Shown here: piece by piece, positions 27,063-47,955 of the stretch
Layout: each line of letters begins with the position of its first letter
Numbering within the stretch: the first letter of the stretch is position 1
Source of the DNA: Devosia pacifica
GTDB taxonomy: Bacteria > Pseudomonadota > Alphaproteobacteria > Rhizobiales > Devosiaceae
Length of the DNA: 64,000 bases
NCBI RefSeq assembly: GCF_014652635.1
Contig: NZ_BMZE01000002.1
Location: 229,562-293,561 of the forward strand
Direction of reading: 5' to 3'
The notes under the pieces: generated by a model
Databases searched by the model: none
What the model was told of the DNA's origin: nothing
Seen by the model: only the letters and a program-made list of their open reading frames with translations
Position numbers and translations under genes: made by a program

Positions 27063-27185
27063 GGAGGAGTGGCGACCGCACACCGGTGCCACCAAGAAAG
27101 AGGTGCGTTCGTCAGCGGCAAGGTTGGCCCCACGGCAGAGGAGTCCGGGGGCGAGACAAGACTAAAGCGATCAAGGGAGGAACAC

Positions 27186-28475: not shown

Positions 28476-28543
28476 TAGCGACGATGCGACCCGCCGTCCT
28501 CTGGGCCGGCGGATCGCTCCCGGTTTAGCGTTTGGAGCCAGAC

Positions 28544-29437
28544 GTGCTGAAATTCTTGCGCCGCAACTTTGCCGGCTATGCGTTCCTGTCGCCTTGGCTG
28601 GTGGGCTTTTTCCTGCTCGCTATCGGGCCGATTCTGGCTTCGCTGTATCTCAGCTTCACGAAATACAATGTCGTGCGCCCGCCCCAATGGATCGGCCTCG
28701 AGCACTATTTCTACATGTTCGAGTTCGACGACCGCTTCAAGAAGGCCCTGCAGGTCACATTCACCTTCGTTGTAATTTCGGTGCCGCTGAAACTGATATT
28801 CGCCCTTGGCGTCGCCATGGCACTGGACAAGGGGATCCGCGCCATCGGCTGGTATCGGGCGCTGTTCTACCTGCCCTCGATTCTGGGGGGCTCAATCGCT
28901 GTAGCGATCCTGTGGCGCCAGCTCTTCAATTACGAGGGCGTGGTCAACTCGGTGCTGAGCCTCATAGGCATTCAAGGGCCTTACTGGCTCGCCGATCCTG
29001 ACTATGCGCTGTGGACGCTGATCGTCCTCGCCGTATGGCAATTCGGTTCGCCGATGCTGATTTTCCTCGCGGGCCTTCGCGCCATTCCGCAGGACCTCTA
29101 TGAGGCCGCCGAGATCGATGCGGCGGGACCGGTGAAGAAATTCTTCGCCATTACCGTGCCGCTTCTGGCGCCCGTGATTTTCTTTAATCTGGTGCTGCAG
29201 ATGATCGAAGCCTTCAAGAGCTTTTCGGGCGCCTTCATCATTTCCGGTGGCTCGGGCGCACCACTCGACAGCCTGCTGTTCTTCACCGTCTATCTCTACA
29301 ACGAGGCCTTTTCCTTCTTGCGCATGGGCTACGCCTCGGCGCTGGCCTGGGTGCTGCTGCTCATCATTGCGCTGTTCACCATCGTCGCATTCTGGACCAG
29401 CAAATACTGGGTCCACTACGAGAACGAGAGAGGCTGA
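28544..29437 (+). CDS. Carbohydrate ABC transporter permease (MalF-like)
   Basis: 297 residues from GTG 28544, preceded by GGAG at 6 nt; a TTG 12 nt earlier is in frame but lacks a site. Six membrane helices, first AFLSPWLVGFFLLAIGPILASLYLSF split around residues 12-38. EAA loop YEAAEIDAAGPVKKFFAITVPLLAPVIF (about 186-213). Partner of the next permease. Confidence 0.92.
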   Translation: MLKFLRRNFAGYAFLSPWLVGFFLLAIGPILASLYLSFTKYNVVRPPQWIGLEHYFYMFEFDDRFKKALQVTFTFVVISVPLKLIFALGVAMALDKGIRAIGWYRALFYLPSILGGSIAVAILWRQLFNYEGVVNSVLSLIGIQGPYWLADPDYALWTLIVLAVWQFGSPMLIFLAGLRAIPQDLYEAAEIDAAGPVKKFFAITVPLLAPVIFFNLVLQMIEAFKSFSGAFIISGGSGAPLDSLLFFTVYLYNEAFSFLRMGYASALAWVLLLIIALFTIVAFWTSKYWVHYENERG

Positions 29438-29439
29438 CG

Positions 29440-30333
29440 ATGACAGACGTTTCCGCCTCCACTACCGCCGAGATCGCTCGCGAATACCGCGCAGAGCGGG
29501 CCCGCCGCGCCAAGCGTGCCGCTGTTCTCAAACATATCTTTCTGGCACTCACTTCCCTCATCATGATCTATCCGCTGATCTGGATGCTGGCCGCATCGCT
29601 CAAGCCGGACACGCAGATCTTCGGCGATATTGGGCTTTGGCCGGGCACGTTCGAGTGGCAGAACTACGCACAGGGCTGGAACGCGCTTCCGGTCAGCTTC
29701 ACCACGTTCTTCTGGAACTCCACCGTGGTGACGGTGCTGTCGGTAGTCGGCAACGTGATCAGTTGCTCTTTTGCCGCCTACGCTTTCGCCCGGCTCGAAT
29801 TCAGCGGCAAGACCATCTGGTTCGCATTGATGATGATGACGTTGATGATCCCGTATCACGTGGTGCTCATCCCCCAGTACATCCTGTTCATGAACCTGGG
29901 ATGGGTCGATACTTATCTGCCGCTCATCGTGCCGAAGTTTCTCGCGGGGGACGCCTTTTTCATTTTCCTGATGATCCAGTTCTTCCGGCAATTGCCAAGG
30001 GAACTGGACGAGGCGGCGATGATCGATGGTTGCTCACCGTTCAAGATCTACTGGGCGATCATCATGCCGCTGTCGCTGCCGGCGATGGCCACGGCGGCCA
30101 TCTTTTCGTTCATCTGGACCTGGGAGGATTTTCTGGGCCCCTTGGTCTACCTCAACGACCAGGCCGACTACACCGTGCCGCTGGCGCTGCGCAGCTTCAT
30201 CAGTTCGGACGGTGTCAGCCAGTATGGGCCGATGTTCGCCATGTCGATCCTGTCGATCCTGCCCATTCTCCTGTTTTTCATTGTTTTCCAGCGCCTGATC
30301 ATTCGCGGCATCGCGATGAGCGGCCTCAAGTAA
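29440..30333 (+). CDS. Carbohydrate ABC transporter permease (MalG-like)
   Basis: 297 residues with a charged N-terminal tail rich in Arg/Ala ([15 protein letters not shown]) before the first helix. Six helices, EAA-type loop [29 protein letters not shown] (about 188-216). It starts 2 bp after the previous stop. Forms the transmembrane heterodimer of this importer. Confidence 0.93.
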
Positions 30334-30343
30334 AAGGACGCTC

Positions 30344-31402
30344 ATGGCTTCCGTCACGCTCTCTGAAGTGCGCAAGGCCTATTCCGGCTTCGCGGTTATT
30401 CACGGCATCGATCTCGAGGTGCAGTCTGGTGAGTTTTTGGTGCTTGTCGGCCCTTCCGGCTGTGGGAAATCAACACTGTTGCGCATGATTGCCGGGCTTG
30501 AGGAGATCACCGACGGCACGATCTCTATCGCCGACCGCATCGTCAATGATTTGCCGGCCAGCCAGCGCAATCTGTCGATGGTGTTTCAGTCATATGCGCT
30601 TTACCCACATATGAGCGTGCGCAAGAATCTTGCCTTCGGGCTATCCAACCTGCGCATGCCAAAGGACGAGATCCAGCGTCGCGTTGCCGACGCGGCGCGC
30701 ATCCTCCAGATCGAGGAATTGCTGGAGCGCAAGCCGCGCCAGCTGTCTGGCGGCCAGAAGCAGCGCGTTGCCATCGGGCGCGCCATCGTGCGCGAGCCGC
30801 AGCTCTTCCTGTTCGATGAACCGCTCTCCAATCTCGATGCCGAGTTGCGGGTGCAGATGCGCGTCGAGTTGGCCGGGCTCTACAACCGCCTGGGCACGAC
30901 GATGATCTATGTCACCCATGACCAGACGGAAGCCATGACCATGGCGACCCGGATCGCGGTGCTCAACAAGGGCAATCTTGAACAGATCGGGACCCCCTAC
31001 GAACTCTACAATGCGCCGAAAAATCTGTTTGTCGCCAGCTTCATCGGTTCACCCAAGATGAACCTGCTTTCGGGCAAGGCAACAGGCAACAAAATCGAAC
31101 TGCCGGGCTTCGGCGCCCTGGCTTTTGTCGGCGCGGCTGGTGAGATGACCGTGGGCGTTCGCCCGGAGCATCTCTCGATCGGCGAACCGGATGGTCGGAG
31201 AGCCGAAGGCACGGTGACGCTGGTGGAATATCTTGGCAGTGAAGTGTTCATCTACGTCGCCCTCATCGACGGGCAGACGCTGCTGGCGCAGGCGCCGGGA
31301 AATGCCAGCTACAAGCGCGGCGACAAGGTTCATCTGAGCTTTCGTGGCGCCGACGCACATTTCTTCGACAGCAAAGGACTGCGCATCGAGGCGCCGCGTT
31401 GA
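30344..31402 (+). CDS. Carbohydrate ABC transporter ATP-binding protein (UgpC/MalK type)
   Basis: 352 residues. Walker [11 protein letters not shown]-loop [14 protein letters not shown], signature [14 protein letters not shown], Walker [14 protein letters not shown]-loop YVTHD and the C-terminal OB domain ([10 protein letters not shown]) are all present. Last transport gene of the operon. It could also energise uptake through the orphan paralogous binding protein at 22785-24068. The stop overlaps the start of the downstream glycosidase gene. Confidence 0.94.
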
Positions 31403-33045
31403 CGCATCCTCTGCTCGAAAAGCTGCGCACCACCACCGTAGGCGATCATGTCGGGCGGCGCGCCGACCCGTCTCGGCGAGCGCTTCTAGAAGAGTGGAAT
31501 CGGTCTGGTGTCCGCTTTGTTTCAAGTAGCGATCGGCTGACCGAGCGCTACTATCAGGCCGTCAGCGAGCTGTTCGATTGCATCGGGCCTGCGGACGATG
31601 ACACGCCGATCCTCCACGAAGGTGGCATCTATCATGGCTGCTGGCTCGAGAGCACCGGGACCATCAATGCCGAACTTCTCAGCCGCTTTCTACCATCGGT
31701 AACCACCGCGACCTATTCCGCGTTCGCCAACCACCAACGCGAAGACGGTCTCTTCCCCTATAAGATTACCGCAGGGGGGCCGGCATTCAGCCAGATCCAG
31801 CTGGTCAGCCCTCTGGCCCGCTCGGTCTACAACCATCATCGTCTCAACAAGCTCGACAGCGGCTGGCTGAGACACATGTATGACGCCATGTCGCGCTACG
31901 ATGGCTGGCTGGCGACGCACCGGGATTCACTGGGAACTGGTGCTGTCGAGGCATTCTCGACCTACGACACCGGCCATGATCTGTCCTCTCGGTTTTGGCA
32001 TGTGCCGGATAGCCCTTTTGGCAACGATCCGACGCGCTATGATCCGCAAAATCCTCTCCTGCCGTTTATCGCACCGGACCTGACGGCCAACGTGACGTGC
32101 CAGCGCACGTATCTCGGCCTGATCAGTCAATCGCTCAGCATCGATGGAACAGAGTGGCACAAAAAGGCGGAAGCCAGCCGCGAAGCCCTGTTCGCGCAGT
32201 GCTTCGAGGCGGAGGACGGTTTTTTCTACGACCGCGACCGGCATGGCAGGTTTGTGCGTGTTCAGTCGGAGGTGCTGCTGCGGGTGCTGGCCTGCGAAAT
32301 CGGCGATGCCGAATTGTTTCGATCGGCACTCGAACGCTATCTGCTCAACACCCGCAAGTTCTTTGCCAAATTTCCATTGACGTCGATTGCACTGGATGAC
32401 CCGCGGTTCGACCATAACTTTGCCCAGAACAGTTGGGCAGGGCCAAGCAATTTCCTCACACTCATCCGCACGCCACATGCCTTTGAGCATTATGGTCACT
32501 ATACTGAACTGACGTGGATCATGCTGCCAGTTGTTGCGGCGCTCACCGATGCAGATCGCTTCCCGCAAACGCTCAACCCGTTCACTGGCGCCGCCGGATT
32601 CACAGAGAAATACTCACCCGCAATCCTCTGCCTGCTCGATTTCGTTGAGCGAATGTCCGGTATATTGCCGCGTCCCGACGGGACGGTCTGGTTCACCAGC
32701 GTCCTGCCGAAGCCTGTGCTGCACAAGCACGAGACCTGGGAGGCCGCCTACGCACGAACGATCGACGGCGTGACGTTCGAGCTGGTCAACACCGAGGCTG
32801 GTGGAGAAATCTATCGCGACGGCCCCCTGCTTTGCCGCTTTCCGCCAGGAACCCGCGTTGTTTTGAGTCGATCTGGTCAGATCGAAGGCGTGGTAAACTT
32901 GGTGAGCGTGAAGATTGATGACAGCATTTGGTACGAAGGCCAGGAGTTGGCTATCTCTATCCTGCCAAACCAGACGCTGGCCATAAGAGGCGGCGCTCCA
33001 TTCTCCGCTCAGGGCCCCGAACTGGTGCTGCCGCAGTACGCCTAA
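31399..33045 (+). CDS. (alpha/alpha)6-barrel glycoside hydrolase (GH63/MGH1-like)
   Basis: 548 residues from TTG 31399, overlapping the ATPase stop (TTGA), so translationally coupled. Helical-barrel glycosidase pattern: [19 protein letters not shown] (about 115-133), [19 protein letters not shown] (about 188-206, acidic residues suitable as catalytic acid), [30 protein letters not shown] (about 343-372, likely base region) and a C-terminal beta domain (about 460-548). No signal peptide, so intracellular. It probably trims the oligosaccharide imported by the preceding genes. Exact family (GH63-like glucosidase, mannosylglycerate hydrolase-like, or an unclassified clan GH-G member) is unsettled. 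Confidence 0.68.
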
Positions 33046-34783: not shown

Positions 34784-35611
34784 TCAGCCCTTGATGGCGC
34801 CAGCGCTCATGCCCGCCACGATCTGGCGGTTGAAGAACAGGAAGACGACCAATGGGGGAATTGTGATCAGCAGGATGTTCATGAAGAGCAGGTTGTACTC
34901 GGTCACGAACTGGCTCTGAAAATTGTAAAGGGTGAGCTGCACAGTGGCGTTTTCGCGTCCTGGCAGATAGTACAGCGGATTGACGAAATCGTTGAAGATA
35001 GCAACGGTCTGAACAACGATTACGGTGACCGTAACCGGCTTCAGCATAGGCAAGATGACTCTGAAGAAGAGGCTCAGCGGGCGTGCGCCGTCGATGATCG
35101 CCGCCTCATCGAGTTCTCTCGGGATGGTTGCAATGAAATTGCGGAAGAGGATCACCGAGAACGACATGTTGTAGGCCACCTCGATCAGCACGAGGCCGTG
35201 GATCGTCTTGAAAATCCCCAGTTGCTGCATCAGCGTGATGGTGGGCACGACCGCCGGCGGCATCATCAGGCCGGCGAGGATGAAAAAGTCGACCCAGGGC
35301 GTCCACCACGTCACCCGACGCTGAAGCACGAACCCGACAAGCGCCGAAAGCACCACCAACAGCGCAACCGAGGTCACCGTGATCACGGTCGAGTTGATGT
35401 AAGCCGTGATCAGCATGAAATCACGGGCCTGAATCACCTGCACGAAGTTCTCGACGACGTGAAAGCTCGTCGGCCAGGAAAAATCCATCTGGGCGGACTG
35501 CTGCTGATCCTTCACCGCCATGAAGATGATGAAGATGAACGGCACGACGAAGACAACCAGAGATATGGCGATTGCCGCGGCGCTTAGGCCGTATTTCTTA
35601 ACCCAGCTCAT
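34784..35611 (-). CDS. Carbohydrate ABC transporter permease (MalG-like)
   Basis: 275 residues, six helices, EAA loop LDEAAIIDGARPLSLFFRVILPMLKPVTV (about 166-194). Overlaps the previous permease by 4 bp. Works with the binding protein at 36595 and the ATPase at 33679. Confidence 0.93.
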   Translation of the reverse strand: MSWVKKYGLSAAAIAISLVVFVVPFIFIIFMAVKDQQQSAQMDFSWPTSFHVVENFVQVIQARDFMLITAYINSTVITVTSVALLVVLSALVGFVLQRRVTWWTPWVDFFILAGLMMPPAVVPTITLMQQLGIFKTIHGLVLIEVAYNMSFSVILFRNFIATIPRELDEAAIIDGARPLSLFFRVILPMLKPVTVTVIVVQTVAIFNDFVNPLYYLPGRENATVQLTLYNFQSQFVTEYNLLFMNILLITIPPLVVFLFFNRQIVAGMSAGAIKG

Positions 35612-36522
35612 CGCGTCACCACCTTGCGATTCAAGAACATGTTCAGTGGCACCGCAAGCACTGCAATCAACACGAACAGCACGACATTTCCGGCTGTGGA
35701 AAGACCATAGAAACCAGACTGGTACTGCTTGTAGACAACAGAGGCCATCACGTCAGACGAGAAGCCTGGCCCACCTTTGGTCATCGTCCAGATCAGATCG
35801 AATAACCGCAGGCCGCCGATGAACGAGAGAATAATGACGGTGAACATCGCGGGGCGCACAAGTGGCAGCGTTATATGCCGGAACTGCTGCCAGCGCGTTG
35901 CCCCGTCAATGCGTGAGGCTTCGTAGTAATCTGCAGGAATCGACACGATACCGGCGATATAGATGACAGTTGCGAGACCAACGCCACGCCAGACATCGAC
36001 CAGCGCCACCGAATAGAGCGCAAGGTTGCGGTCGACCAGCCAACCCGGTCCGTCGATGCCGATCATCGCCAGTGTCTCGTTGATGACGCCTTCCGTCGGG
36101 TGCATCAGAATCGTGAAAGTGATGCCAACCCCCACGGTGCTGACCAACACGGGGAAGAAGACTACCGAGCGCAGAAAGTCCCGTGCGATTAGAGGCGAGG
36201 TCAGCAGCACCGCCAGCGCCAGCCCGAGGACCACCTTCAGGCCGGAGGTCACAAAGGCGAAGATGACGGTATTGATCAGCGCCTGGTAGAGGAATGGCTC
36301 CTGGAAGAACTGGATGAAGTTGTCGAAGCCGATGAACTCAGAATTGAAAAGCGTCCACCGGGTGAGGCTGTAGTATAGCGAGGTGATGGTCGGCAACAGG
36401 AACAGAATGCCGTAGATCGCGGCTGCAGGATACAGCAGCCAGATCGGATACATGGACGCCTGGCGGTCCTTGACCCTCGATTTCTTCGGCGCATTCACTG
36501 CGCCCGCCGTTGCCACTGCCAT
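35608..36522 (-). CDS. Carbohydrate ABC transporter permease (MalF-like)
   Basis: 304 residues from MAVATAGAVNAPKKSRVKDR (36522); the open frame further upstream would run into the hairpin after the binding-protein gene. Six helices (first YPIWLLYPAAAIYGILFLL), EAA loop YEASRIDGATRWQQFRHITLPLVRPAMF (about 202-229). The ribosome site is weak (GGATAG), so translation may depend on coupling or be low compared with the binding protein. Confidence 0.9.
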   Translation of the reverse strand: MAVATAGAVNAPKKSRVKDRQASMYPIWLLYPAAAIYGILFLLPTITSLYYSLTRWTLFNSEFIGFDNFIQFFQEPFLYQALINTVIFAFVTSGLKVVLGLALAVLLTSPLIARDFLRSVVFFPVLVSTVGVGITFTILMHPTEGVINETLAMIGIDGPGWLVDRNLALYSVALVDVWRGVGLATVIYIAGIVSIPADYYEASRIDGATRWQQFRHITLPLVRPAMFTVIILSFIGGLRLFDLIWTMTKGGPGFSSDVMASVVYKQYQSGFYGLSTAGNVVLFVLIAVLAVPLNMFLNRKVVTR

Positions 36523-36555
36523 CGCTTCTATCCAAGCCCCATGCAGAAATAGACA

Positions 36556-36582
36556 TGCCGCCCCGCGCAAAGCGGGGCGGCA
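36556..36582 (-). terminator. Strong intercistronic stem-loop after the binding-protein gene
   Basis: TGCCGCCCCGC (36556-36566) and GCGGGGCGGCA (36572-36582) form a perfect 11-bp stem with loop GCAAA. It lies between the binding-protein stop (36595) and the permease start (36522). No long U-tract follows on the minus strand, so it more likely causes partial termination or 3'-end protection, raising binding-protein mRNA over permease mRNA. Confidence 0.6.
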
Positions 36583-36594
36583 CTCGGGACGATC

Positions 36595-37887
36595 TTACCA
36601 GCCTTCTAGGCCAAGCTGCTGCGCCTGCTTGCGCACGTCCTGGTCGTAGAGTTCGGCAGCGCTTGCAGGATCGCGGAAACCGGAGCCAACTTCGACTGTG
36701 ATCTGCTCAAGAGCTGGCCCCTTGATCGGCGACAGGAACTCGAGAGCAGGCTCGACACGCCCTTCTTCGAAATAGGGCAGCATGTCACGCACGGCGGGCA
36801 CCACATCATCAGGCAGACCGCAGCCTTCGATCAGGTACGGCCCATTTGCGCCGACCGCATCGATCATCGCCTCGCAGCCCTCGACGCTCGCGATGAAACC
36901 GAGGAAGTCCATCGCAACTTCAGGATTTGAGGTGGTCTGGGGCACGTACACACCAGCCGGCATCCAGGTGGTCAATCCGTTGCTATCAGCATCATCGCCA
37001 GGCAAGGCAAAAAAGCCGATATCGTCGACCTGATCCGGATAGTTGGTTTCCAGCGAGGGGATAGCGAAGGTGATCATCGGATAATGCGCACCTTCCTTGT
37101 TGGCGAGCATTTCCAGGCCTTCCTGGTAGCCGAGGGCGTTGAAATCCTCGTTGGTGTAGCCGGCCTCATGGATCGCCGCGAGCCGTTCGAAGCCCTTCTG
37201 CGCCGCTTCACTAGTGGCGTATTTGGCTTCGTTGTTGGTGTAGCGCTCGGCAAAGTCCGGCTCTGCCTGCAGCACGTTGTAGAAATCGGCCAGAACGAAG
37301 ATCTGCGATGTCCAGCTCTCGCGGAAAGTCTGAATTACCGGAATGTACCCGGCCTCATCGATCGCGGAATTGTTCTCCATGAAGGCATCCCATGTCTGCG
37401 GGACTTCAAGACCAAGCTCTTCATAGATTGCGCTGTTATAAAGGATGCCGCCGCCTTGTGCTGCGCCATAGGGCACACCGAAGACCTCGCCATCAGTCGA
37501 AACCACGCTCTGGAAGGCTTCCTGAACGTTGTCCATGAAAGGCTGGTCGGTGAGCGGCATCAAGGTCTGCTGCGGCGCGATGGCCTGTAGGAGCGAACCC
37601 GAGTTATAAACGAAAATATCGGTCATCTCGCCGGTTGCCAGGCGGGTCTTGACGATATTGTCACCCTCGCCGCCACCCGGACGGATTTCCAGCTCAATGC
37701 TTACGTTGGGGTTCTTTTCCTCATACGCCGCGACCAGCGCCTCTGCGATATCGACAGTGCTCGGGCCATTGTCGACGAGCCAGGTCAGTTCGACCTGATC
37801 CTGCGCATATGCGGGCGCGGCCAGTGAAAGGGCCAACGCGGTCGCGCCGCCCATAGCCAGTGTTGCGTTCAACTTCTTGAGCATCAT
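36595..37887 (-). CDS. ABC sugar-binding protein (family 1)
   Basis: 430 residues from ATG 37887 (GGGAGGAAAA upstream), Sec signal peptide NATLAMGGATALALSLAAPA cut near AYAQ. Mature start VELTWLVDNGPSTVDIAEALVAAYEEKNP is SBP_bac_1-like. The C-terminus ends ELYDQDVRKQAQQLGLEGW, seen in several rhizobial sugar-binding proteins. It lies just downstream of the GH78 rhamnosidase gene, so the ligand is probably a rhamnose-containing oligosaccharide or glycoside. Confidence 0.92.
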   Translation of the reverse strand: MMLKKLNATLAMGGATALALSLAAPAYAQDQVELTWLVDNGPSTVDIAEALVAAYEEKNPNVSIELEIRPGGGEGDNIVKTRLATGEMTDIFVYNSGSLLQAIAPQQTLMPLTDQPFMDNVQEAFQSVVSTDGEVFGVPYGAAQGGGILYNSAIYEELGLEVPQTWDAFMENNSAIDEAGYIPVIQTFRESWTSQIFVLADFYNVLQAEPDFAERYTNNEAKYATSEAAQKGFERLAAIHEAGYTNEDFNALGYQEGLEMLANKEGAHYPMITFAIPSLETNYPDQVDDIGFFALPGDDADSNGLTTWMPAGVYVPQTTSNPEVAMDFLGFIASVEGCEAMIDAVGANGPYLIEGCGLPDDVVPAVRDMLPYFEEGRVEPALEFLSPIKGPALEQITVEVGSGFRDPASAAELYDQDVRKQAQQLGLEGW

Positions 37888-37949
37888 TTTTCCTCCCTTG
37901 GTGGCACCCGCAGCACAGGCCACGAGCACAGATGCAAAACTAGTGCGAG

Positions 37950-40325
37950 TTACGGCGTGTTGTTTGAGGGCGCAGCCACGTCGAGCCCCTCTCGTAGTGG
38001 CGCGATCTCAAAGGTTACCTTGTGCGACCCCGGAGAAAGCAGGACGTCAGACGAGGCATCGACAGCCTCTCCATCGACAGTCGCATTCGAGTATTCGGGG
38101 CGCAGACGCAGCACGCCGCGGCTCTCTGCAGGCACAGCCACATCATATGTCACGGTGCTGGCACTCAGCGTCCAACTGGCAGCGATGTCGCCGCGCTTGC
38201 TCGTGTGCCGAGCGGAAACCGGCGCCAGTTCCGGCAAAATTACCGGCGAAAACACAATCTCCTCAAAGCCAGGATTCTCTGCAGTGGGGCTAAACCCGGC
38301 TACTGCCTCGAACAACCACTGGCAAACCGCCCCATAGGCATAGTGGTTGTAGGAATTCATCTGCGGATTAAAGATCGAACCATCTTCCTGGATCGCATCC
38401 CAGCGCTCCCAGATCGTCGTGGCGCCGCGCTTGACCTGATAAAGCCAGCCGGGAACCTCCTCCTGCAAAAACATCTGCTGCGCCAGTCCCAATTCGCCAA
38501 GCTTGACCAGAGCGGGCAGCAGTGCCGGCGTTCCGATGAACCCGGTGCCAATACGGCCACCGCAGCGGGCGATCGCGTTACGGAAATGCTTGCGCACACC
38601 GTCGAGCTTGTCTTCCGGCACGAGATCATGGACGACCGCAAGGGCGTACGAAGTCTGATCGTCTCCACCAACGCGGCCCGAGGGGGTGATAAATTCATCC
38701 TGGAAGGCGGATCTCACCTTGGCTGCCATTTCGGCCATGCGCTTGGCGATTTCGTTTTCGCCAACGCGCTTGGCAATCTGCGAGACGAGATCGGTGCAGA
38801 TATACAGGTAGATCGTTGCCGAGGCTTCATCGCTGATTGTCGGTAGCGGCTTCGCACTCGGGCCTTTCGGCTGAAGCCAATCGCCGAAAGAAAACCCACG
38901 CTGCCCCCATGCACGCGGCGGCGAGACGATCGGTCCATCGCTGATCGACCAGACGAAATCTGCCCATTTCACCATGGCCGGCAAAGCTTCGCGCAAGATC
39001 GCCTCGTCGGCATAATGCAGGAACAGCGTGTGCGGGATGATTTCGATCGCATCGCCCCAACCGGTGCTGCCGAAGAATCCGGGGTAGAGGTCCGGACGCA
39101 TGCGAGTCGGATCAGGCGAGACGTGCGGAATCGCACCATCCTCGCGCTGATCAGCCATCAGGTCGCGGACATACTTGGTCAGAAAACCATGGCTGTCGTG
39201 CAGGTAGCATGCGGTCGAAGAAAACACCTGCGCATCGCCAGTCCAGCCGAGACGCTCGTCGCGCTGCGGGCAGTCGGTCGGCACTTCGATGAAGTTTGCG
39301 CGCTGCGACCAGATCGTGTTTTCGACAAGCCGATTGACGAGTTCGTTCCCGGACGTGAACGAGCCGATCAGCGGATAGACGGAGCTGATGGGCACCGATT
39401 TGACGTCGGTGACATCCGCCTTGCCTTCAATCGTTATGCGCGCATACCGAAAGCCCTGAAACGTAAAGTGCGGCCGGTAGGATTCGGGCACCCCGCCCTT
39501 AAGCGTGTATTCCAGGCGGCATTCAGCGGTACGCAGATTGCCATTGTAGAAATTGCCGTCCTTGTCGAGGATTTCAGCGTGCTCCACGATCACGCGTGCG
39601 CCAGCCTCGCCGATGACCGTGAAGGCTACATAACCGCCGGCATTCTGTCCAAAATCATGAATGGCGCGGCCTTCTTCATCCTGCCAGCTTTTTACGGAGG
39701 CCAGCGGGTCAAGCTCATGCACCGGCTTGCATTCGTGCGGCACCAACAGGGAGGTGTCGAAGCTGATGACTTCAGCTCCCTGCTCCGCCGCTCCGCCTTC
39801 CAAACGGGCGTCATAGATCTCGCCGAAATAGATTCCCGACTTACGAATCGGAAGCTCGCCGCTTTTCCAGCTCTCGTCGGTGGCAACCACAAGATCATCA
39901 CCCGAGGTCAGCTCGGCAATCGCTGCGATCTGATCACCCCAGGTGTTGTGGATGGGGCGCTTACCCCACATCAGCTGCGAGCGGTACCAGCCATCGGCGA
40001 GCCAGATCTCGATTGTATTTTCGCCTGAGACCAGAGACTCCGAGACATCATAGGTCTGATAGGAAATGCGCTGATCGTACGCCGTCCAACCCGGCGTCAG
40101 AATGTCGTTGCCGACCCTCTTGCCATTGATGAAACAGATATAAGCTCCGAGGGCGCTGATACGCAGTTGCGAATCCGCCGGCGAACCTTGGAGCGTGAAC
40201 GTCTTGGTCAGGAAGCTCGCGGGCCGCTCGACGCCCTTATCACTCAGCGGGCGAACCATCTGCGCCTGCCAGGATGAAGTTTGCGTCTTCTGCGCTCCAA
40301 ACGAACGCTCGCCAGCCAATTCCAC
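37950..40325 (-). CDS. Alpha-L-rhamnosidase, glycoside hydrolase family 78
   Basis: 791 residues from GTG 40325 (GGAGGG upstream). Bac_rhamnosid_N region: LRISALGAYICFINGKRVGN...LTPGWTAYDQRISYQTYDV (about 54-94). Concanavalin-like domain about 200-305. (alpha/alpha)6 barrel with the GH78 signature PTDCPQRDERLGWTGDAQ (about 349-366; general acid within DER, Asp 364 further on) and WERWDAIQEDGSIFNPQMNSYNHYAYGA, then C-terminal beta domain. No signal peptide, so it acts on imported glycosides, releasing L-rhamnose. No rhamnose isomerase or dehydrogenase genes are in the window. First gene of the operon; LacI-type gene divergent. Confidence 0.94.
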   Translation of the reverse strand: MELAGERSFGAQKTQTSSWQAQMVRPLSDKGVERPASFLTKTFTLQGSPADSQLRISALGAYICFINGKRVGNDILTPGWTAYDQRISYQTYDVSESLVSGENTIEIWLADGWYRSQLMWGKRPIHNTWGDQIAAIAELTSGDDLVVATDESWKSGELPIRKSGIYFGEIYDARLEGGAAEQGAEVISFDTSLLVPHECKPVHELDPLASVKSWQDEEGRAIHDFGQNAGGYVAFTVIGEAGARVIVEHAEILDKDGNFYNGNLRTAECRLEYTLKGGVPESYRPHFTFQGFRYARITIEGKADVTDVKSVPISSVYPLIGSFTSGNELVNRLVENTIWSQRANFIEVPTDCPQRDERLGWTGDAQVFSSTACYLHDSHGFLTKYVRDLMADQREDGAIPHVSPDPTRMRPDLYPGFFGSTGWGDAIEIIPHTLFLHYADEAILREALPAMVKWADFVWSISDGPIVSPPRAWGQRGFSFGDWLQPKGPSAKPLPTISDEASATIYLYICTDLVSQIAKRVGENEIAKRMAEMAAKVRSAFQDEFITPSGRVGGDDQTSYALAVVHDLVPEDKLDGVRKHFRNAIARCGGRIGTGFIGTPALLPALVKLGELGLAQQMFLQEEVPGWLYQVKRGATTIWERWDAIQEDGSIFNPQMNSYNHYAYGAVCQWLFEAVAGFSPTAENPGFEEIVFSPVILPELAPVSARHTSKRGDIAASWTLSASTVTYDVAVPAESRGVLRLRPEYSNATVDGEAVDASSDVLLSPGSHKVTFEIAPLREGLDVAAPSNNTP

Positions 40326-41676: not shown

Positions 41677-42501
41677 TTAACGGGCGACGATAACTTCAAC
41701 GCCGCGCCGCTCGAACTCGGCACGGTTCTCGGCTGAAATTCCATCGTCAGTAATCAGCGTGTGCACCATCTCGACGCCGCCGAGAGCCGAGAAGGCTACC
41801 CGGCCGATTTTGGTTGAGTCTGCCAGCAAATAGACATGCGAAGCGGCCTTCACCATGGCGCGCTTGACGTAGATATCGCCAATTGAGGGGTAAGTCAGAC
41901 CAACATCGAAGGAGACACCGGCAGTCGCGAGGAAGAGCTTCTCGGCGTAGATCCCGACGAAGAACTCAACGGATTTCTCGCCACTGAGTGAAAGCGTTGG
42001 CGCCTTGAACTGCCCAGCGGGCATATGCACCGTGTTCGTCGGCATTGCTCCCAAGATGAGTGCGATATTCAGGCCATTGGTGATGATATTCAGTTCTTGG
42101 CGGGTGCGCAGGTTTTCCGCGAATTGGGTAGTTGTCGATCCTGAATCGATGATCAAGGTTTCGTTATTGCCGACCAGGGACGCAGCAACCTGACCGATCT
42201 TGCGCTTTCGCTCCATGTTATCGACGTGCTGCAGGGACATAGACTGCACTTGGTGCGGAACAGATCGCAGGTATGCACCGCCGTGCTCCCTAGTGATGAA
42301 CCCTTCCGCGTCAAGTCGCTCCAGGTCCTGCCTTATGGTGGCTTCGGAAACATGGAAGGCCCCCGACAAGTCACGAACCCGAGCGCTACCCTCTTCCTGA
42401 AGCCACTCCAGTATGCGCATGCGGCGCGGCTCAGCCAATAGCTGTGGCTGCGCACTCTGCTCAGTTGCCCGTTTGCGTCGAGCCCTTCGAACTCTATCCA
42501 C
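41677..42501 (-). CDS. DeoR-family transcriptional regulator
   Basis: 274 residues from GTG 42501 (GGAGG close upstream); an alternative start is the internal ATG of MRILEWLQEEG (residue 28). HTH: ARVRDLSGAFHVSEATIRQDLERLDAEGFITREHGGAY (about 40-77). The DeoR_C sugar-phosphate sensor domain follows (LIIDSGSTTTQFAENL, FLATAGVSFDVGLTYPS, LLADSTKIGRVAFSALGG). These match the usual effector pocket, so a phosphorylated sugar is the likely inducer. Divergent from the transketolase/kinase operon and most probably its regulator. Confidence 0.92.
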   Translation of the reverse strand: MDRVRRARRKRATEQSAQPQLLAEPRRMRILEWLQEEGSARVRDLSGAFHVSEATIRQDLERLDAEGFITREHGGAYLRSVPHQVQSMSLQHVDNMERKRKIGQVAASLVGNNETLIIDSGSTTTQFAENLRTRQELNIITNGLNIALILGAMPTNTVHMPAGQFKAPTLSLSGEKSVEFFVGIYAEKLFLATAGVSFDVGLTYPSIGDIYVKRAMVKAASHVYLLADSTKIGRVAFSALGGVEMVHTLITDDGISAENRAEFERRGVEVIVAR

Positions 42502-42765: not shown

Positions 42766-43605
42766 ATGTCATCGTCCACAAAAGTGCCAAGGAATGACGC
42801 CGTAACCCAGATCGCGTCCAAATCGCTCTGGATTCGCAGGCGCAGCTTTCAAATGGTCTATGAGGCTCAGCAGGGACACCCCGGCGGTGATTTTAGTGCC
42901 GCAGACATTCTCGCAACACTCTATTTCGGTGTGATGCGGTTTGATCCGCGAAAGCCGAATGATCCCGGTCGCGACCGGTTCGTGATGAGCAAGGGACACT
43001 GCTCCGGCGCCTTTTACGCTGCGCTGGCCGCCGCTGGATATTTTCCGGAGGATGAGTTGAAGACCTACATGGAGCCGCTCAGTAAGCTCAACGGTCACCC
43101 GAACCGCAACTACCTGCCAGGCGTCGAGACCAACACCGGTCCTTTGGGCCATGGACTACCTGTCGCGACCGGCATCGCCATCGCCGGCCAGCTTGACAAC
43201 GCCGATTTCCGCACGTTCGTTTTGACAGGCGATGGCGAGTTGCAAGAAGGCAGCAACTGGGAGTGTGCACTGACTGCTGCTCATCGCAAGCTCGAGAACC
43301 TCACGCTGATCGTCGACCGCAATCGCCTGCAGCAGGGCGCGCGCACCGAGGACACGGCGACACTTGACCCTCTCGACGAAAAATGGCGCGCCTTCGGTTG
43401 GCATGTCGAAATGGTCGACGGCCATGATCATGCCCAATTGCTCGATGTGCTCTCGGCACCAGCGAAAGGGCGGGGCAAGCCGCTTTGCGTCATTGCCAAT
43501 ACCTTTAAGGGCAAGGGCGTCAGCTTCATGCATGACAACGTGTCCTGGCACCACGGCGTGCCCAACAAGGAACAGTACGAACAGGCGATGGCGGAACTGG
43601 TCTGA
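42766..43605 (+). CDS. aptA: Split transketolase, N-terminal subunit (apulose-4-phosphate transketolase A-like)
   Basis: 279 residues from ATG 42766 (AGGGAGG upstream); an earlier in-frame ATG (42712) is less likely. The TPP domain has GHPGGDFSAADILATLYF (38-55), MSKGHCSGAFYAALA, NTGPLGHGLPVATG and the metal motif GDGELQEGSNWECALTA (155-171). It needs the next gene as C-terminal partner. Split transketolases are found in several organisms, but the neighbours (FGGY kinase, TIM-barrel isomerase, DeoR regulator) match the D-apiose route, in which AptAB converts D-apulose 4-phosphate and an acceptor into dihydroxyacetone phosphate plus a longer sugar. The symbol is tentative. Confidence 0.68.
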   Translation: MSSSTKVPRNDAVTQIASKSLWIRRRSFQMVYEAQQGHPGGDFSAADILATLYFGVMRFDPRKPNDPGRDRFVMSKGHCSGAFYAALAAAGYFPEDELKTYMEPLSKLNGHPNRNYLPGVETNTGPLGHGLPVATGIAIAGQLDNADFRTFVLTGDGELQEGSNWECALTAAHRKLENLTLIVDRNRLQQGARTEDTATLDPLDEKWRAFGWHVEMVDGHDHAQLLDVLSAPAKGRGKPLCVIANTFKGKGVSFMHDNVSWHHGVPNKEQYEQAMAELV

Positions 43606-44564
43606 TGAGCGCAGTTGAACAAACAACGGATGAGCTGTTCGACTGCCGCGAGAGCTTCGCGCAGACGATCGAGGCGCTCGCTGCGGAAGATCCGCGTATT
43701 GTTACAGTAGTAAGCGACAGCGTCGGATCCTCCAAACTGGGTGGCTTCCGCACCAAGTTTCCCGACCGCATGGTCAATGTCGGGATTGCCGAGCAGACAT
43801 TAGTGGCCGTCGGCGCCGGACTCGCCAATGGCGGCAAGGTGCCCTTCGTTTCCGCCGCGTCATGCTTCATCACCGGCAGGGCGATGGAGCAGGTCAAGGC
43901 CGACATCGCCTACTCCAACGTCAATGTGAAGCTCATTGGCCAGTCGAGCGGTGTTGCCTATGGTGAGCTTGGGCCGACCCACCATTCGATAGAGGACCTG
44001 GCCTGGCTTCGCCTGTTCAACAACATGAAGCTGATCGTGCCAGCGGATCCCTGGCAGACAAGCGAGGCCATTCGGGCCGCGGCTGCTCATGACGGGCCGG
44101 TTTTTGTTCGTATCAGCCGCATGAAGGTCCCGGCCCTAGAGCGGTCCGCTGATGCCCGATTCGAGATTGGCAGCGCGGAAACCCTGGTCGAGGGCGACGA
44201 CGCGACGATTATCGCCAACGGCACCATGGTGCATCGCGCCGTCGCTGCTGCTCGTCTTCTTGCTGACGAAGGCATTGCCACCCGCGTCGTGAACATGGCG
44301 ACCGTCAACCCGCTCGACGAAGCGGCAATCGCCGCAGCAGCCGACACCGGAGCCATTGTCACCCTCGAAGAACACTCCGTCCGTGGTGGGCTCGGGGGCG
44401 CAGTTGCCGAACTGGTCGCCACGACCAATCCCGTTCCCATGCGCATACTCGGCTTTCCGGGCTTCGTGCCCACCGGCTCTGCAGAATTTCTGTTCGATCA
44501 TTTCGGGCTCAACCCCGCCGGTATCGCCGATGCCGTTCGCCAGACTGTCGCGCGCAAGAGATGA
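43605..44564 (+). CDS. aptB: Split transketolase, C-terminal subunit (apulose-4-phosphate transketolase B-like)
   Basis: 319 residues; its ATG overlaps the TGA of the N-terminal subunit. Pyrimidine-binding domain: FPDRMVNVGIAEQTLVAVGAGLANGGKVPFVSAAS (catalytic Glu in IAEQ), AYGELGPTHHSIEDLAWLR, then the C-terminal domain ATVNPLDEAAIAAAADTGAIVTLEEHSVRGGLGGAVAE with the usual EEH. Together with the upstream gene it forms a complete two-chain transketolase. Substrate assignment is from operon context. Confidence 0.68.
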   Translation: MSAVEQTTDELFDCRESFAQTIEALAAEDPRIVTVVSDSVGSSKLGGFRTKFPDRMVNVGIAEQTLVAVGAGLANGGKVPFVSAASCFITGRAMEQVKADIAYSNVNVKLIGQSSGVAYGELGPTHHSIEDLAWLRLFNNMKLIVPADPWQTSEAIRAAAAHDGPVFVRISRMKVPALERSADARFEIGSAETLVEGDDATIIANGTMVHRAVAAARLLADEGIATRVVNMATVNPLDEAAIAAAADTGAIVTLEEHSVRGGLGGAVAELVATTNPVPMRILGFPGFVPTGSAEFLFDHFGLNPAGIADAVRQTVARKR

Positions 44565-46060
44565 CAAGCGAGTTGATCCTCGCCATCGACCAGGGCACTA
44601 CCAACACCAAGGCGCTGTTGGTCGATGCCGCAGGTCAGATTCGGCACCAGGCTTCGGTACCGAATCTGGTGAACTATCCTCAACCCGGTTGGGCGGAACA
44701 GTCGGCAACGGCGCTGTTCGATGGTGTCAGGCAGGTGATCGCAAAGGTGCTCGACAGCGCCGGCGGTGCCACCATTGCCGGCATCGGCATTTCCAATCAG
44801 CGCGAATCTGTTCTGGTCTGGAATGCGCAGACCGGCTCGCCGATAGGCCCGGTCGTCGTCTGGCAATGTCGCCGTTCGGCGCCCAAATGCGATGCGCTGC
44901 GCGCTTCAGGGCATGAAGACCTGATCGCGGCGAAGACCGGATTGGCGCTCGATCCCTTGTTTCCCGCAGCAAAGATCGCGTGGCTCCTCGACAATATACC
45001 GGGCGCCCGAGAGCAAGCCGAGCGTGGTGACCTGCGTGCGGGCACCGTGGATAGCTGGCTGTTGTGGAATCTCACCGGCGGTACGACGCACGCAACGGAC
45101 CATTCAAACGCGGCGCGTACCCAGCTCTTCAATACCGAGACCCTGAGCTGGGACGAAGAGCTGTGTGCGTTGTTCGAGGTTCCGGTCGCGATGCTGCCAG
45201 AGGTGAAGGCATCCGAGACCCGCTTTGGCGTGACAGCCGAGGGGGCGACCGCCCTGCCCGCCGGAACACCGGTTCTGGCAATGATCGGGGATTCACATGC
45301 CGCTCTGTTCGGTCATGGCGCGCGCCAGCCCGGAGCAGTCAAGGCAACCTATGGTACGGGCACCTCGCTTATGGCGCTTACGCCATCGCGCCTGCACTCG
45401 CGCAATGGCATTTCAAGCACGATTGCCTGGAGCCAGAAGGACACGATCCAATATGCACTCGAAGGCAATATTTCCGTTTCCGGACAGGCAGCTGCGTTCA
45501 TCGCAGAGCTGCTGGGTCTGGAGAACGCCGCAGCGCTCACGGCGCTGGCGCGGACGGTACCGGACAGCAATGGGGTCGCCTTCGTACCGGCCCTAGTCGG
45601 CCTCGGGGCGCCTTATTGGCGTTCAGACGCGCGCGGAACGGTCACCGGAATGAGCCTTGGCACCAAGCCGGCCCATATGGCGCGCGCAGCACTTGAGGCC
45701 ATCGCCTTTCAGGTTGCCGATGTCTATTCAGCCATGCAGGCGGACATGGATAGTGAACTTGGAGAGCTTCGGGCGGATGGCGGCGCATCGCGCAACGATC
45801 TGCTCATGCAGTTTCAGGCCGATATCCTGTCTCGACCTGTCGCGGCCGCGGCCGCGCCGGAAGTGAGCGCCCTCGGCGCTGCCGCGCTGGCATTTTCGTC
45901 GCTGGGCCACGACCTGCCGGCGGTTGCAGCAGCCAAGCACTTTACGCCTCAGATCAAGGCGAGCTTTGCGCAACAGCATCGTCAGCGCTGGCAAATAGCC
46001 GTGGCACAGACCTTGGCTGGCCACCCGCAAGAGCATGAGACTTCAGGAGGAAACCAATGA
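44561..46060 (+). CDS. aplK: FGGY-family carbohydrate kinase (apulose kinase-like)
   Basis: 499 residues, full-length FGGY kinase. N-terminal phosphate loop LAIDQGTTNTKALLVD (7-22), GISNQRESVLVWN (about 75-87), AGTVDSWLLWNLTGG (about 160-174), MIGDSHAALFGHG, YGTGTSLM and the C-terminal LRADGGASRNDLLMQFQADIL region (about 405-424). Glycerol kinase is the nearest textbook relative, but the operon suggests D-apulose (or another short or branched ketose) as substrate. Overlaps both neighbours by 4 bp (ATGA). Missing from this window: glycerol-3-phosphate dehydrogenase or a glycerol facilitator that would argue for glycerol. Confidence 0.68.
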   Translation: MTSELILAIDQGTTNTKALLVDAAGQIRHQASVPNLVNYPQPGWAEQSATALFDGVRQVIAKVLDSAGGATIAGIGISNQRESVLVWNAQTGSPIGPVVVWQCRRSAPKCDALRASGHEDLIAAKTGLALDPLFPAAKIAWLLDNIPGAREQAERGDLRAGTVDSWLLWNLTGGTTHATDHSNAARTQLFNTETLSWDEELCALFEVPVAMLPEVKASETRFGVTAEGATALPAGTPVLAMIGDSHAALFGHGARQPGAVKATYGTGTSLMALTPSRLHSRNGISSTIAWSQKDTIQYALEGNISVSGQAAAFIAELLGLENAAALTALARTVPDSNGVAFVPALVGLGAPYWRSDARGTVTGMSLGTKPAHMARAALEAIAFQVADVYSAMQADMDSELGELRADGGASRNDLLMQFQADILSRPVAAAAAPEVSALGAAALAFSSLGHDLPAVAAAKHFTPQIKASFAQQHRQRWQIAVAQTLAGHPQEHETSGGNQ

Positions 46061-47043
46061 CAACACAGCGTTTTGGCGCCGGCATCTGGCACTTCGCGAC
46101 CTATCTCGACCGCTATGCCACAGATGGCTACGGGGCGCCGCGCAGCGTCATCGATGCAATCGATCTGGCGGGCAAAGTACGCGACCTTTCGGTCGTCGAC
46201 ATCAACTATCCTTTTTTCGGCGGCGACTTCTCCAACGCCCAGATCAAGGAAGCGCTCGAGCGTAACAATCTCGGTGTCATCGGCATCACCCCCGAGATCT
46301 ACACGCGCGAGTTCACCAAGGGTTCGTTCACCAATCCCGACGCCGGGATCCGCCGGCGCGCGCATGAACTCGTAACCGAGGCCTGCGATGTGGTACGCGC
46401 GTTCGATGCCGACTACGTCAAGCTATGGCCCGGCCAGGATGGCTGGGATTATCCGTTCCAGGTGGACTATGGCACGCTGTGGAAGAACTCCATCGACGGG
46501 GTCGCTCAGCTAGCCAGCGAAAACCCCGATCTCAAGTTCGTAATCGAGTACAAGCCGCGCGAACCACGGGTTCGCATGAGCTATGGCTCCGTTGCCCGGA
46601 CGCTGCTCGGCATCGAGAAGATGGGTCTGCCCAATGTCGGCATCCTGCTCGATTTCGGGCACGCCATCATGGCCGGAGAGTCGGCAGCGGACAGTGCTCA
46701 GCTTGCCATCGACTATGGCCGTCTGTTCGGCATGGACGTCAACGACAACTACCGGTCATGGGACGATGACCTCGTTGCCGGCAGCTTGCATCCGCTGGAG
46801 CTTTTCGAGTTCTTCTACGTGCTCAGGAAGAACAACTGGGAAGGGGTCTGGCAGCTCGATCAATTTCCCTTCCGCGAGGACAGTGTTGCCACGGCCGATC
46901 ACGCCATCGACTTTTTGAAAGCCGCAGCCAAGGGCCTCGATGCCCTCGATGTCGATGCACTCAGGGAAGCGCAGGGCCGCCACGATGCCATTTCCGCCCT
47001 AAAGATCGCACAAAAGGCGCTCTTCGGCGCCATGGGAGAGTAA
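46057..47043 (+). CDS. Xylose-isomerase-like TIM-barrel sugar isomerase (D-apiose isomerase candidate)
   Basis: 328 residues of the AP-endonuclease-2/sugar isomerase fold. Metal-site strands are visible: KFVIEYKPREPR (Glu, about 170), VGILLDFGHAIMAGE (Asp and His, about 203-205), GMDVNDNYRSWDDDLVAGSLH (about 228-248) and WQLDQFPFRED (Asp, about 267). This arrangement (E, D, H, D) suits a divalent-metal aldose-ketose isomerase. In the apiose pathway an enzyme of this fold turns D-apiose into D-apulose. An L-rhamnose-isomerase-type or epimerase role is an alternative, notable as a rhamnosidase operon is adjacent. Overlaps the kinase gene by 4 bp. Confidence 0.65.
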   Translation: MTTQRFGAGIWHFATYLDRYATDGYGAPRSVIDAIDLAGKVRDLSVVDINYPFFGGDFSNAQIKEALERNNLGVIGITPEIYTREFTKGSFTNPDAGIRRRAHELVTEACDVVRAFDADYVKLWPGQDGWDYPFQVDYGTLWKNSIDGVAQLASENPDLKFVIEYKPREPRVRMSYGSVARTLLGIEKMGLPNVGILLDFGHAIMAGESAADSAQLAIDYGRLFGMDVNDNYRSWDDDLVAGSLHPLELFEFFYVLRKNNWEGVWQLDQFPFREDSVATADHAIDFLKAAAKGLDALDVDALREAQGRHDAISALKIAQKALFGAMGE

Positions 47044-47049
47044 ACCGAC

Positions 47050-47955
47050 ATGACCAATCTGCCCCGCGAGAAGCGCGCCCGCCTCATCCTCAATACCGAC
47101 GCGAAGAACGAAGCGGACGACCAGTTCACAATCGTTCATGCCTTGCTCACACCGACATTCGATTTCCACGGCCTGATACCGGCGCATTTCGGCGATCACC
47201 GCTCGAAGACGGCAATGGAAGACAGCCGCAAGGAGATCGACCATCTGCTGGCGCTGATGGATCTGTCCGGCCGTATCCCAGTTGCTAATGGCGCGGCAAC
47301 CGCCCTGCCTGACGAGCAGACGGCCGTCCCCTCGCCCGGCGCGCAGATGATCATCGACGAAGCGATGAAGGATGACGACCGGCCACTGTACGTCGCGTTT
47401 CTTGGCCCGCTCACCGATATGGCCTCTGCCCTCCTCATGGAACCCAGACTGAATGAGCGCAACGTCATCTGCGTCTGGATTGGCGGCGGCGTCTGGCCCA
47501 CCGGCGGCCGAGAATTCAACCTGATGAACGATATCGCCGCAGCCAATGTCGTCATGCGGTCGAATGTCGAGGTCTGGCAGATTCCCTCCACCGTTTATCG
47601 CATGATGTCGGTAAGCTATGCCGAATTGCAGGAACGCTGCGAGGAGAAGGGGCCGATCGGCAAGTACCTCGTCGACCAGCTCATCGAGTGGAACCTGCGC
47701 GTGCACAAGGGGCCGATCGAACATCGCTCGCTGGGCGACACCCCATCGCTGTCTGTCATTCTTAACCCGATGGGTGGCACCTATGAATGGCGCCCCGCCC
47801 CTGAGTTCAGCCCGCATATGCACTACGTTCACACCGGGCAGCACCGGCCGATCAAGGTCTACGACACGATCGACATCCGCTACATCCTCGAAGACTTCTA
47901 CGCAAAGCTCGCCCGTTTCCATCGCGGCGTGCAGGAACTGGCGAACTTCGGTTGA
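47050..47955 (+). CDS. Nucleoside-hydrolase-fold protein, non-canonical
   Basis: 301 residues. The N-terminal calcium/ribose-site motif, canonically DxDPGxDD, reads NTDAKNEADDQF here (15-26), two residues longer and of the TDxxNExDD kind seen in Sde182-like/DUF1593 nucleoside-hydrolase relatives. Other fold markers are kept: FLGPLTDMASAL (about 117-128), WIGGGVWPTGG (143-153) and EFNLMNDIAAANVV (155-168). Classical enzymes bind a ribofuranosyl group. It lies 6 bp after the isomerase gene in the apiose-type operon, so a furanosidase role (for example on apiofuranosides) is an attractive but unproven idea; a nucleoside hydrolase role remains possible. Confidence 0.72.
   Translation: MTNLPREKRARLILNTDAKNEADDQFTIVHALLTPTFDFHGLIPAHFGDHRSKTAMEDSRKEIDHLLALMDLSGRIPVANGAATALPDEQTAVPSPGAQMIIDEAMKDDDRPLYVAFLGPLTDMASALLMEPRLNERNVICVWIGGGVWPTGGREFNLMNDIAAANVVMRSNVEVWQIPSTVYRMMSVSYAELQERCEEKGPIGKYLVDQLIEWNLRVHKGPIEHRSLGDTPSLSVILNPMGGTYEWRPAPEFSPHMHYVHTGQHRPIKVYDTIDIRYILEDFYAKLARFHRGVQELANFG

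Follow-up and report, generated by a model that had tools for sequence, protein, structure and literature searches.

A nucleoside hydrolase-fold protein linked to D-apiose operons in Devosia pacifica and other bacteria, a candidate intracellular apiofuranosidase

From the 4.0 Mb genome of Devosia pacifica (G000; Devosiaceae, Alphaproteobacteria) we analyzed a stretch of 64,000 nucleotides, called here the window (contig NZ_BMZE01000002.1, positions 229,562 to 293,561, forward strand); positions given without a prefix are those of the window. Five genes on the plus strand lie head to tail at 42766-47955, with successive junctions of a 1-base overlap, two 4-base overlaps and a 6-base gap, and this is one operon. 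The first four encode enzymes of the types found in a D-apiose pathway and the last encodes a protein of the nucleoside hydrolase (NH) fold, hereafter the NH protein, whose possible function is the subject of this report. A preliminary description of the same DNA, made from the sequence, had given this layout of five genes, overlaps and gap, with a divergent DeoR-type regulator, and the open reading frames (ORFs) bear it out:

41677-42501, minus strand: DeoR-type regulator, divergent from the operon (Pfam DeoRC 142 bits, HTH_DeoR 55.6 bits)
42766-43605, plus strand: AptA-like transketolase N-terminal chain (Pfam Transketolase_N 154 bits; 44% identical to E. coli AptA)
43605-44564, plus strand: AptB-like transketolase C-terminal chain (Pfam Transket_pyr and Transketolase_C; 40% identical to E. 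coli AptB)
44561-46060, plus strand: AplK-like FGGY kinase, an apulose kinase by homology (Pfam FGGY_N and FGGY_C; 45% identical to E. coli AplK)
46057-47043, plus strand: ApsI-like isomerase, a xylose-isomerase-like TIM barrel (Pfam AP_endonuc_2)
47050-47955, plus strand: NH-fold protein, proposed intracellular apiofuranosidase (Pfam IU_nuc_hydro and Sde182_NH-like)

The start codon of the regulator ORF is uncertain; a regulator of this type is present at 12 of the 15 Devosia-type loci described below (L047-L061). AGGGAGG, which resembles a ribosome-binding site, precedes the AptA-like ORF, and promoter and terminator scans of the operon gave no useful result.

The D-apiose pathways, the oxidative route included, were reportedly described by Carter et al. 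in 2018. The roles of the apiose enzymes are assigned here from general knowledge, backed by NCBIfam names and by a study of Escherichia coli which, in the part available to us, cites Carter et al. (2018) for the apiose pathways (PMC13001218). According to the same part of that study, strains carrying a cluster of aplK, aptA and aptB use D-apiose for growth and K-12 cannot. Compared with the E. coli SE15 apiose proteins, the matches of the window proteins run over near full length (496 positions for the kinase). They sustain the earlier description of the operon as D-apiose-type, and its worry that the closest homologues might act on another sugar found no support for the kinase and the transketolase. 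Two NCBIfam glycerol kinase models score 514 and 512 bits with the window kinase, the first being a subfamily model with a cut-off of 498; since E. coli AplK scores nearly as high (490 and 495 bits), such scores characterize the family. In two Rhizobium plasmids, proteins with 91-92% identity to the isomerase are encoded ahead of AptA, AptB and a kinase. The isomerase also has a solved relative in PDB 3ktc (431 bits), named Xylose isomerase and presumably a Pectobacterium protein. No match to the ApnL lactonase was found in the window genome at E 1e-80. Homology supports the degradation of D-apiose by this operon via the isomerase, kinase and transketolase route, of which it has all four enzyme types (a candidate ApsI, AplK and the two chains of AptAB); the E. 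coli cluster, in contrast, has neither ApsI nor an NH protein and carries a ribose-type (CUT2) importer. Elsewhere, AptAB/AplK operons without a recognized ApsI often encode a protein of the fucose-isomerase/sulfoquinovose-isomerase type (L075:5722-7167, L103:4107-5507, L146-L149, L152, L157-L159), a candidate for a second, unrelated type of apiose isomerase.

The preliminary description had recommended a survey of gene neighborhoods. One scan of genome contigs yielded 481 loci with relatives of the NH protein, and the best 80 of them (53-95% identical) were analyzed with up to 10 kb of flanking DNA on each side, using markers drawn from both the window and Microvirga; marker thresholds for these and the importer counts were chosen after earlier marker results had been seen. 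The nearest named relatives are from Devosia species (95% identical). At least two isomerase-route markers accompany the NH gene in 36 of the 80 loci and at least two oxidative-route markers in 8, while 3 loci have a single marker and 33 none. All 15 Devosia-type loci belong to the isomerase route, and the other 65 comprise 21 isomerase-route and 8 oxidative-route loci (29/65 positive). Among the 44 positive loci, at most 150 bases separate the NH gene from the nearest marker in 26, and the two share a strand in 34. The positive loci belong to Pseudomonadota, Bacillota, Verrucomicrobiota, Chloroflexota, Thermomicrobiota and Actinomycetota, to an unplaced bin (L105), and to Myxococcota and Spirochaetaceae bins (L098 and L099) that look alike and are possibly one organism. 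The 80 loci are partly non-independent, L056 and L059 being from one genome and L125 and L126 from one species. A contig named Mycobacterium sp. KBS0706 (L062) has an NH locus that closely resembles the Inquilinus loci and clusters with these in the tree described below; the genome is probably misnamed. A scan of viral contigs found no relative of the NH protein.

The second route is seen in Microvirga ossetica, where an NH protein 72% identical to that of the window is encoded by the last gene of a different, oxidative-type operon. Its other products include a RuBisCO-like protein (best NCBIfam model OiaX, 453 bits, below the cut-off of 700), a kinase (best model OiaK, 575 bits, below the cut-off of 700), a PGDH-type dehydrogenase and a MalEFG-type importer, and a protein encoded upstream passes the curated D-apionate lactonase model ApnL (899 bits, cut-off 750). 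We take this gene set to be the oxidative D-apiose route. The arrangement in M. lotononidis is the same. As a contrast, 14 neighborhoods of NH proteins of 27-36% identity (L006-L008, L010, L011, L038-L046) were scanned with a marker set that did not contain ApnL, and no apiose catabolic marker was found except that L044 gave a weak match to the FGGY kinase (65 bits) and L038 had a DeoR relative on its edge. Since L038 is located some 10 kb away from an apiose operon (L143) and next to two apiosidase-family genes, the contrast holds for 13 of the 14; the scan left out L009 (45% identity over a portion of the protein) and other plasmid NH matches. A separate NH group with the motif TDTxNEIDDQ is found in L007, L008, L011 and L039-L046, and its genes adjoin ABC importers in L007 and L008 (in L008 annotated as of the betaine/proline/choline family).

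A quick maximum-likelihood tree was built from 63 NH proteins, and parsimony gives at least four switches of route among its 29 labeled rows (22 isomerase route and 7 oxidative, counting as oxidative L063, which has one marker and a Gfo/Idh gene; unlabeled rows were ignored). Support is strong for 20 of the 60 inner branches and weak for 16. In Hyphomicrobiales, a close NH protein (at least 67% identical) occurs in 9 of 397 genomes and all 9 encode AptB (4) or ApnL (5) somewhere, compared with 111 of the 397 genomes overall (62 plus 63 less 14 shared). The association (Fisher p 8e-6) involves only three genera and is inflated by kinship; in two of the nine genomes (G225 and G130) the apiose gene is distant from the NH gene, and six of the nine apparently also appear in the survey of 80 loci. 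On these genomic grounds the NH clade is, with high confidence, linked to apiose. The two D-apiose routes have D-apiose in common and no later intermediate before central metabolism. Because only D-apiose is shared and the NH protein is kept across the exchange of routes, it would therefore act at or before free D-apiose. The preliminary description had offered the NH protein as a candidate apiofuranosidase, and that suggestion is strengthened by the relatives beside the oxidative route, their spread over several phyla and the switches on the tree.

The NH protein matches IU_nuc_hydro (PF01156) with 65.6 bits (cut-off 34.2) and Sde182_NH-like (PF07632) with 38.4 bits (cut-off 26.8), the latter over half the length only (residues 11-129, profile positions 1-134 of 268); PF13204 is not among its Pfam matches. 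Structure prediction of 47050-47955, one of the checks proposed earlier, returned a clear NH fold. The protein has a single domain and no signal peptide by eye. No other close copy is encoded in the window genome, where the two remaining matches score 27.8 and 21.4 bits. Residue conservation was examined in 64 aligned relatives, the window protein included, and counts for the loop described below are over 63. The sites of interest are as follows:

47092-47121, plus strand: variant Asp motif NTDAKNEADD, residues 15-24 (alignment of 64)
47185-47187, plus strand: H46 (His in 64/64)
47512-47520, plus strand: E155-F156-N157, equivalent of RihA E164-F165-N166 (sequence alignments)
47737-47739, plus strand: D230, equivalent of the third calcium-binding Asp (alignment with Leishmania NH; Asp in 64/64)

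The motif NTDAKNEADD, noted from the start as a departure from DxDPGxDD, is real: D17, K19, N20, E21, D23 and D24 are invariant (64/64), and the variable positions are residue 15 (Asn in 56/64, Asp in 8/64), residue 18 (A, V or L) and residue 22 (A or V). The protein does not have the DxDxxxDD fingerprint (PMC8910321), as its first Asp is mostly Asn and the spacing is D-x5-DD. With residue roles taken from the available part of PMC2898832, the three calcium-binding Asp residues are kept as D17, D24 and D230 in 64/64, a mapping made by sequence alignment in which the equation of D17 is a judgement. E155 and N157 are likewise present in 64/64, and residue 156 is Tyr in 38 and Phe in 26. RihA binds the ribose O5' through N158 and E164; the Glu is kept in 64/64 and the Asn column holds Asn in 3/64 (2/64 by another alignment). 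The loop before EFN has 8 residues in 57 of 63 relatives, compared with 11 in RihA. Of the conserved furanosyl pocket that the preliminary description had looked for, the calcium and cis-diol residues are thus kept and the O5' Asn is not. In an alignment with 14 distant relatives, H46 is shared only by L038, the one near an apiose operon; the residue is a candidate contact of the leaving group or the sugar. T122 was considered as a backbone calcium ligand and set aside, as the RihA ligand T124 aligns with L118.

Compared with ribonucleoside hydrolases (RihA, IU-NH, plant NRh; PF01156), the Asp motif of the NH protein is two residues longer and begins mostly with Asn, and the protein also differs at Asn39, at the residue preceding the last Asp and in its apiose gene context. 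It resembles proteins of the Sde_0182 type (PF07632) in having an alternative Asp motif of equal length class and a link to carbohydrate genes. The available part of PMC8910321 describes carbohydrate-binding and other domains in Sde_0182, unlike the single-domain NH protein, and reports that its NH domain does not hydrolyze nucleosides and is considered a furanose-interacting module. The same part mentions an NH-like effector that binds ADP-ribose at the catalytic-site position. Another effector, with the motif DxxxDxDD, neither hydrolyzes nor binds nucleosides according to the available part of PMC3608555, and the motif of the NH protein, which reads DxxxExDD, is of that length class. In a TonB-receptor locus of a Croceibacterium plasmid (L129:7989-10456), an ApsI-like gene (71% identical to that of the window) is followed after 33 bases by a gene for an Sde182-type protein with a signal-like N-terminus. 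This single case, without annotated AptAB nearby, points the same way as the apiose link; a class-wide search for ApsI matched 2 of 385 genomes, the window genome being one, too few for testing the pairing with Sde182-type proteins.

CUT1 and Opp systems commonly take up oligomers, and CUT2 systems monosaccharides. We compared the importers of 43 NH-bearing apiose loci (those of at least 11 kb among 46 marker-positive loci, namely the 44 above and two Microvirga plasmids) with those of 20 apiose loci without NH, 17 of them hand-picked (16 from 63 AptB-positive genomes and one from the ApsI search) and 3 from plasmids; L143, which has a distant NH, was excluded. CUT1 importers are found in 18 of the NH-bearing loci, Opp-type in 9, either in 26 and CUT2 in 8, versus CUT2 in 18 and CUT1 in 2 of the NH-less loci (Fisher 2.6e-4 and 7.9e-8, uncorrected for kinship). 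GH140-type apiosidases (PF13204), whose fold we take to differ from the NH fold, share the proposed kind of substrate and are sometimes encoded by a neighboring gene. Near the NH gene in marker-negative loci, 3 of 91 proteins match PF13204, tied with four other families among the 25 listed of 105; ABC permeases lead with 7. These are in L093 (386 bits, with a collagen-binding domain, opposite strand, convergent) and in L101 and L110 (NH strand). Devosia genome G357 has a distantly related NH gene (35% identity, motif DNDYSGDPDD) that comes after two apiosidase-family genes and a full Opp system (L143:8371-18115), a group divergent from an apiose operon; the two apiosidase-family proteins, of which one was Pfam-scanned and both were matched by tblastn, have no signal peptides by eye. 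The window genome has one PF13204 gene, outside the window (G000 C1:564253-565341, 122.6 bits). Release of the sugar from a glycoside is favored because of the CUT1/Opp importers, the PF13204 neighbors and the G357 locus.

The best explanation, which we hold to be probable, is that the NH protein is an intracellular calcium-dependent apiofuranosidase. The residue conservation and the fold prediction are results of this analysis, and the metal, chemistry and substrate belong to the proposal. In the proposed scheme, the cytoplasmic protein would act on a small apioside taken up by the cell, for instance an apiosyl-glucoside, apiobiose or a piece of pectin, and free its D-apiose. A calcium ion held by D17, D24 and D230 would grip the cis 2,3-diol of a beta-D-apiofuranosyl group, as it does with ribose, and a water positioned by D17 and N157 would attack C1. 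Apiofuranose has a cis-diol as in ribofuranose, and its CH2OH is on C3, not C4. This shift of the CH2OH would account for the missing O5'-binding Asn; the retained calcium and cis-diol residues together with the absence of that Asn would suit apiofuranose better than ribofuranose. The fold family is known, and the apiofuranosidase function is a new proposal. In the open-licence literature we found no paper that links apiose with a nucleoside hydrolase; subscription papers were mostly outside this search, so a prior report is possible.

Several points weigh against this proposal. The 33 marker-negative relatives are often on short contigs, yet 15 of 43 loci of at least 20 kb are also negative. 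The importer loci were hand-picked and taxonomically uneven, and no importer adjoins the apiose operon of the window; the matches of the window genome to Opp-type and CUT2 binding proteins are only 38% and 36% identical, with such proteins found at 9 and 3, respectively, of the 15 Devosia-type loci. Upstream of the operon lie two CUT1-type sugar importers and an MGH1-like glycosidase (27069-33045 and 34784-37929). An apiosidase-family protein accompanies the NH protein in some loci, which leaves the bond cut by the latter ambiguous. In 14 of 63 relatives an Asn does occur somewhere within the loop from which the O5' Asn is missing, and the scheme assigns no general acid. A Pantoea plasmid encodes an isomerase 63% identical to that of the window without surrounding apiose markers, so the ApsI-type fold subfamily alone is no proof of apiose. 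Term look-ups in two reviews of nucleoside hydrolases, as far as their available text goes, gave no mention of glycosides as substrates.

The same neighborhoods would fit a protein that handles free D-apiose or its precursor non-hydrolytically, either as a sensor of apiose or apiosides or as a changer of anomer or ring form. The ADP-ribose-binding effector and the view of Sde_0182 as a furanose-interacting module, both from the available part of PMC8910321, lend this some plausibility. It is nevertheless unlikely: the Asp residues of the calcium site and the Asn that positions the water, invariant in 64/64, are hydrolase-like, and the interchange of sugar rings is spontaneous, so that no enzyme is necessary for it. 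It is less likely again that the genes downstream act on a different branched or furanose sugar, released by the NH protein. In the NCBIfam scan, matches of the window kinase, transketolase and isomerase were all generic, no curated model among them naming an apiose enzyme, and the Pantoea isomerase stands outside an apiose context; but the identities of 44, 40 and 45% to the E. coli apiose cluster and the curated D-apionate lactonase at the locus of the 72% identical NH protein speak for apiose. That the protein is a plain ribonucleoside hydrolase, supplying pentose and located in sugar operons by chance, is, by a small step, more doubtful still. It would agree with the PF01156 match, the NH fold and a distant relative (27%, L010) whose gene is flanked by those for a PfkB kinase and a nucleoside transporter, but not with the missing DxDxxxDD fingerprint, the unconserved O5' Asn or the recurrent link to two apiose routes; no nucleoside-salvage genes were noticed among the annotated or Pfam-scanned neighbors of the close clade, for which no systematic search was made. 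Hydrolysis of a lactone or other intermediate of the pathway is very improbable, for although the oxidative route has a lactone step and a lactonase is present in the Microvirga locus, that lactonase is the dedicated ApnL and the isomerase route, home of the window's copy, has no lactone.

A gene for a GH78 alpha-L-rhamnosidase lies at 37950-40325, and such genes recur near apiose or NH genes in L048, L056, L077, L115, L143 and L144; rhamnosyl-apiosyl plant compounds may be the common food. Apiose occurs widely in the cell walls and glycosides of plants. If the intracellular apiofuranosidase reading is true, the step that frees apiose inside cells is named, the NH fold gains an O-glycosidase function, and NH-like proteins inactive on nucleosides have a concrete substrate to be tried. 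The genomic argument is a clean one, as one enzyme is retained through the exchange of two unrelated downstream pathways. We lean slightly toward the broader view that the clade founds a family of NH-fold O-glycosidases, calcium-dependent apiofuranosidases serving both D-apiose routes in several phyla, with gut relatives of the Monoglobus and Lachnospira types among them, and that by extension proteins with alternative Asp motifs, for example of the Sde_0182 type, may be furanoside hydrolases and not nucleosidases.

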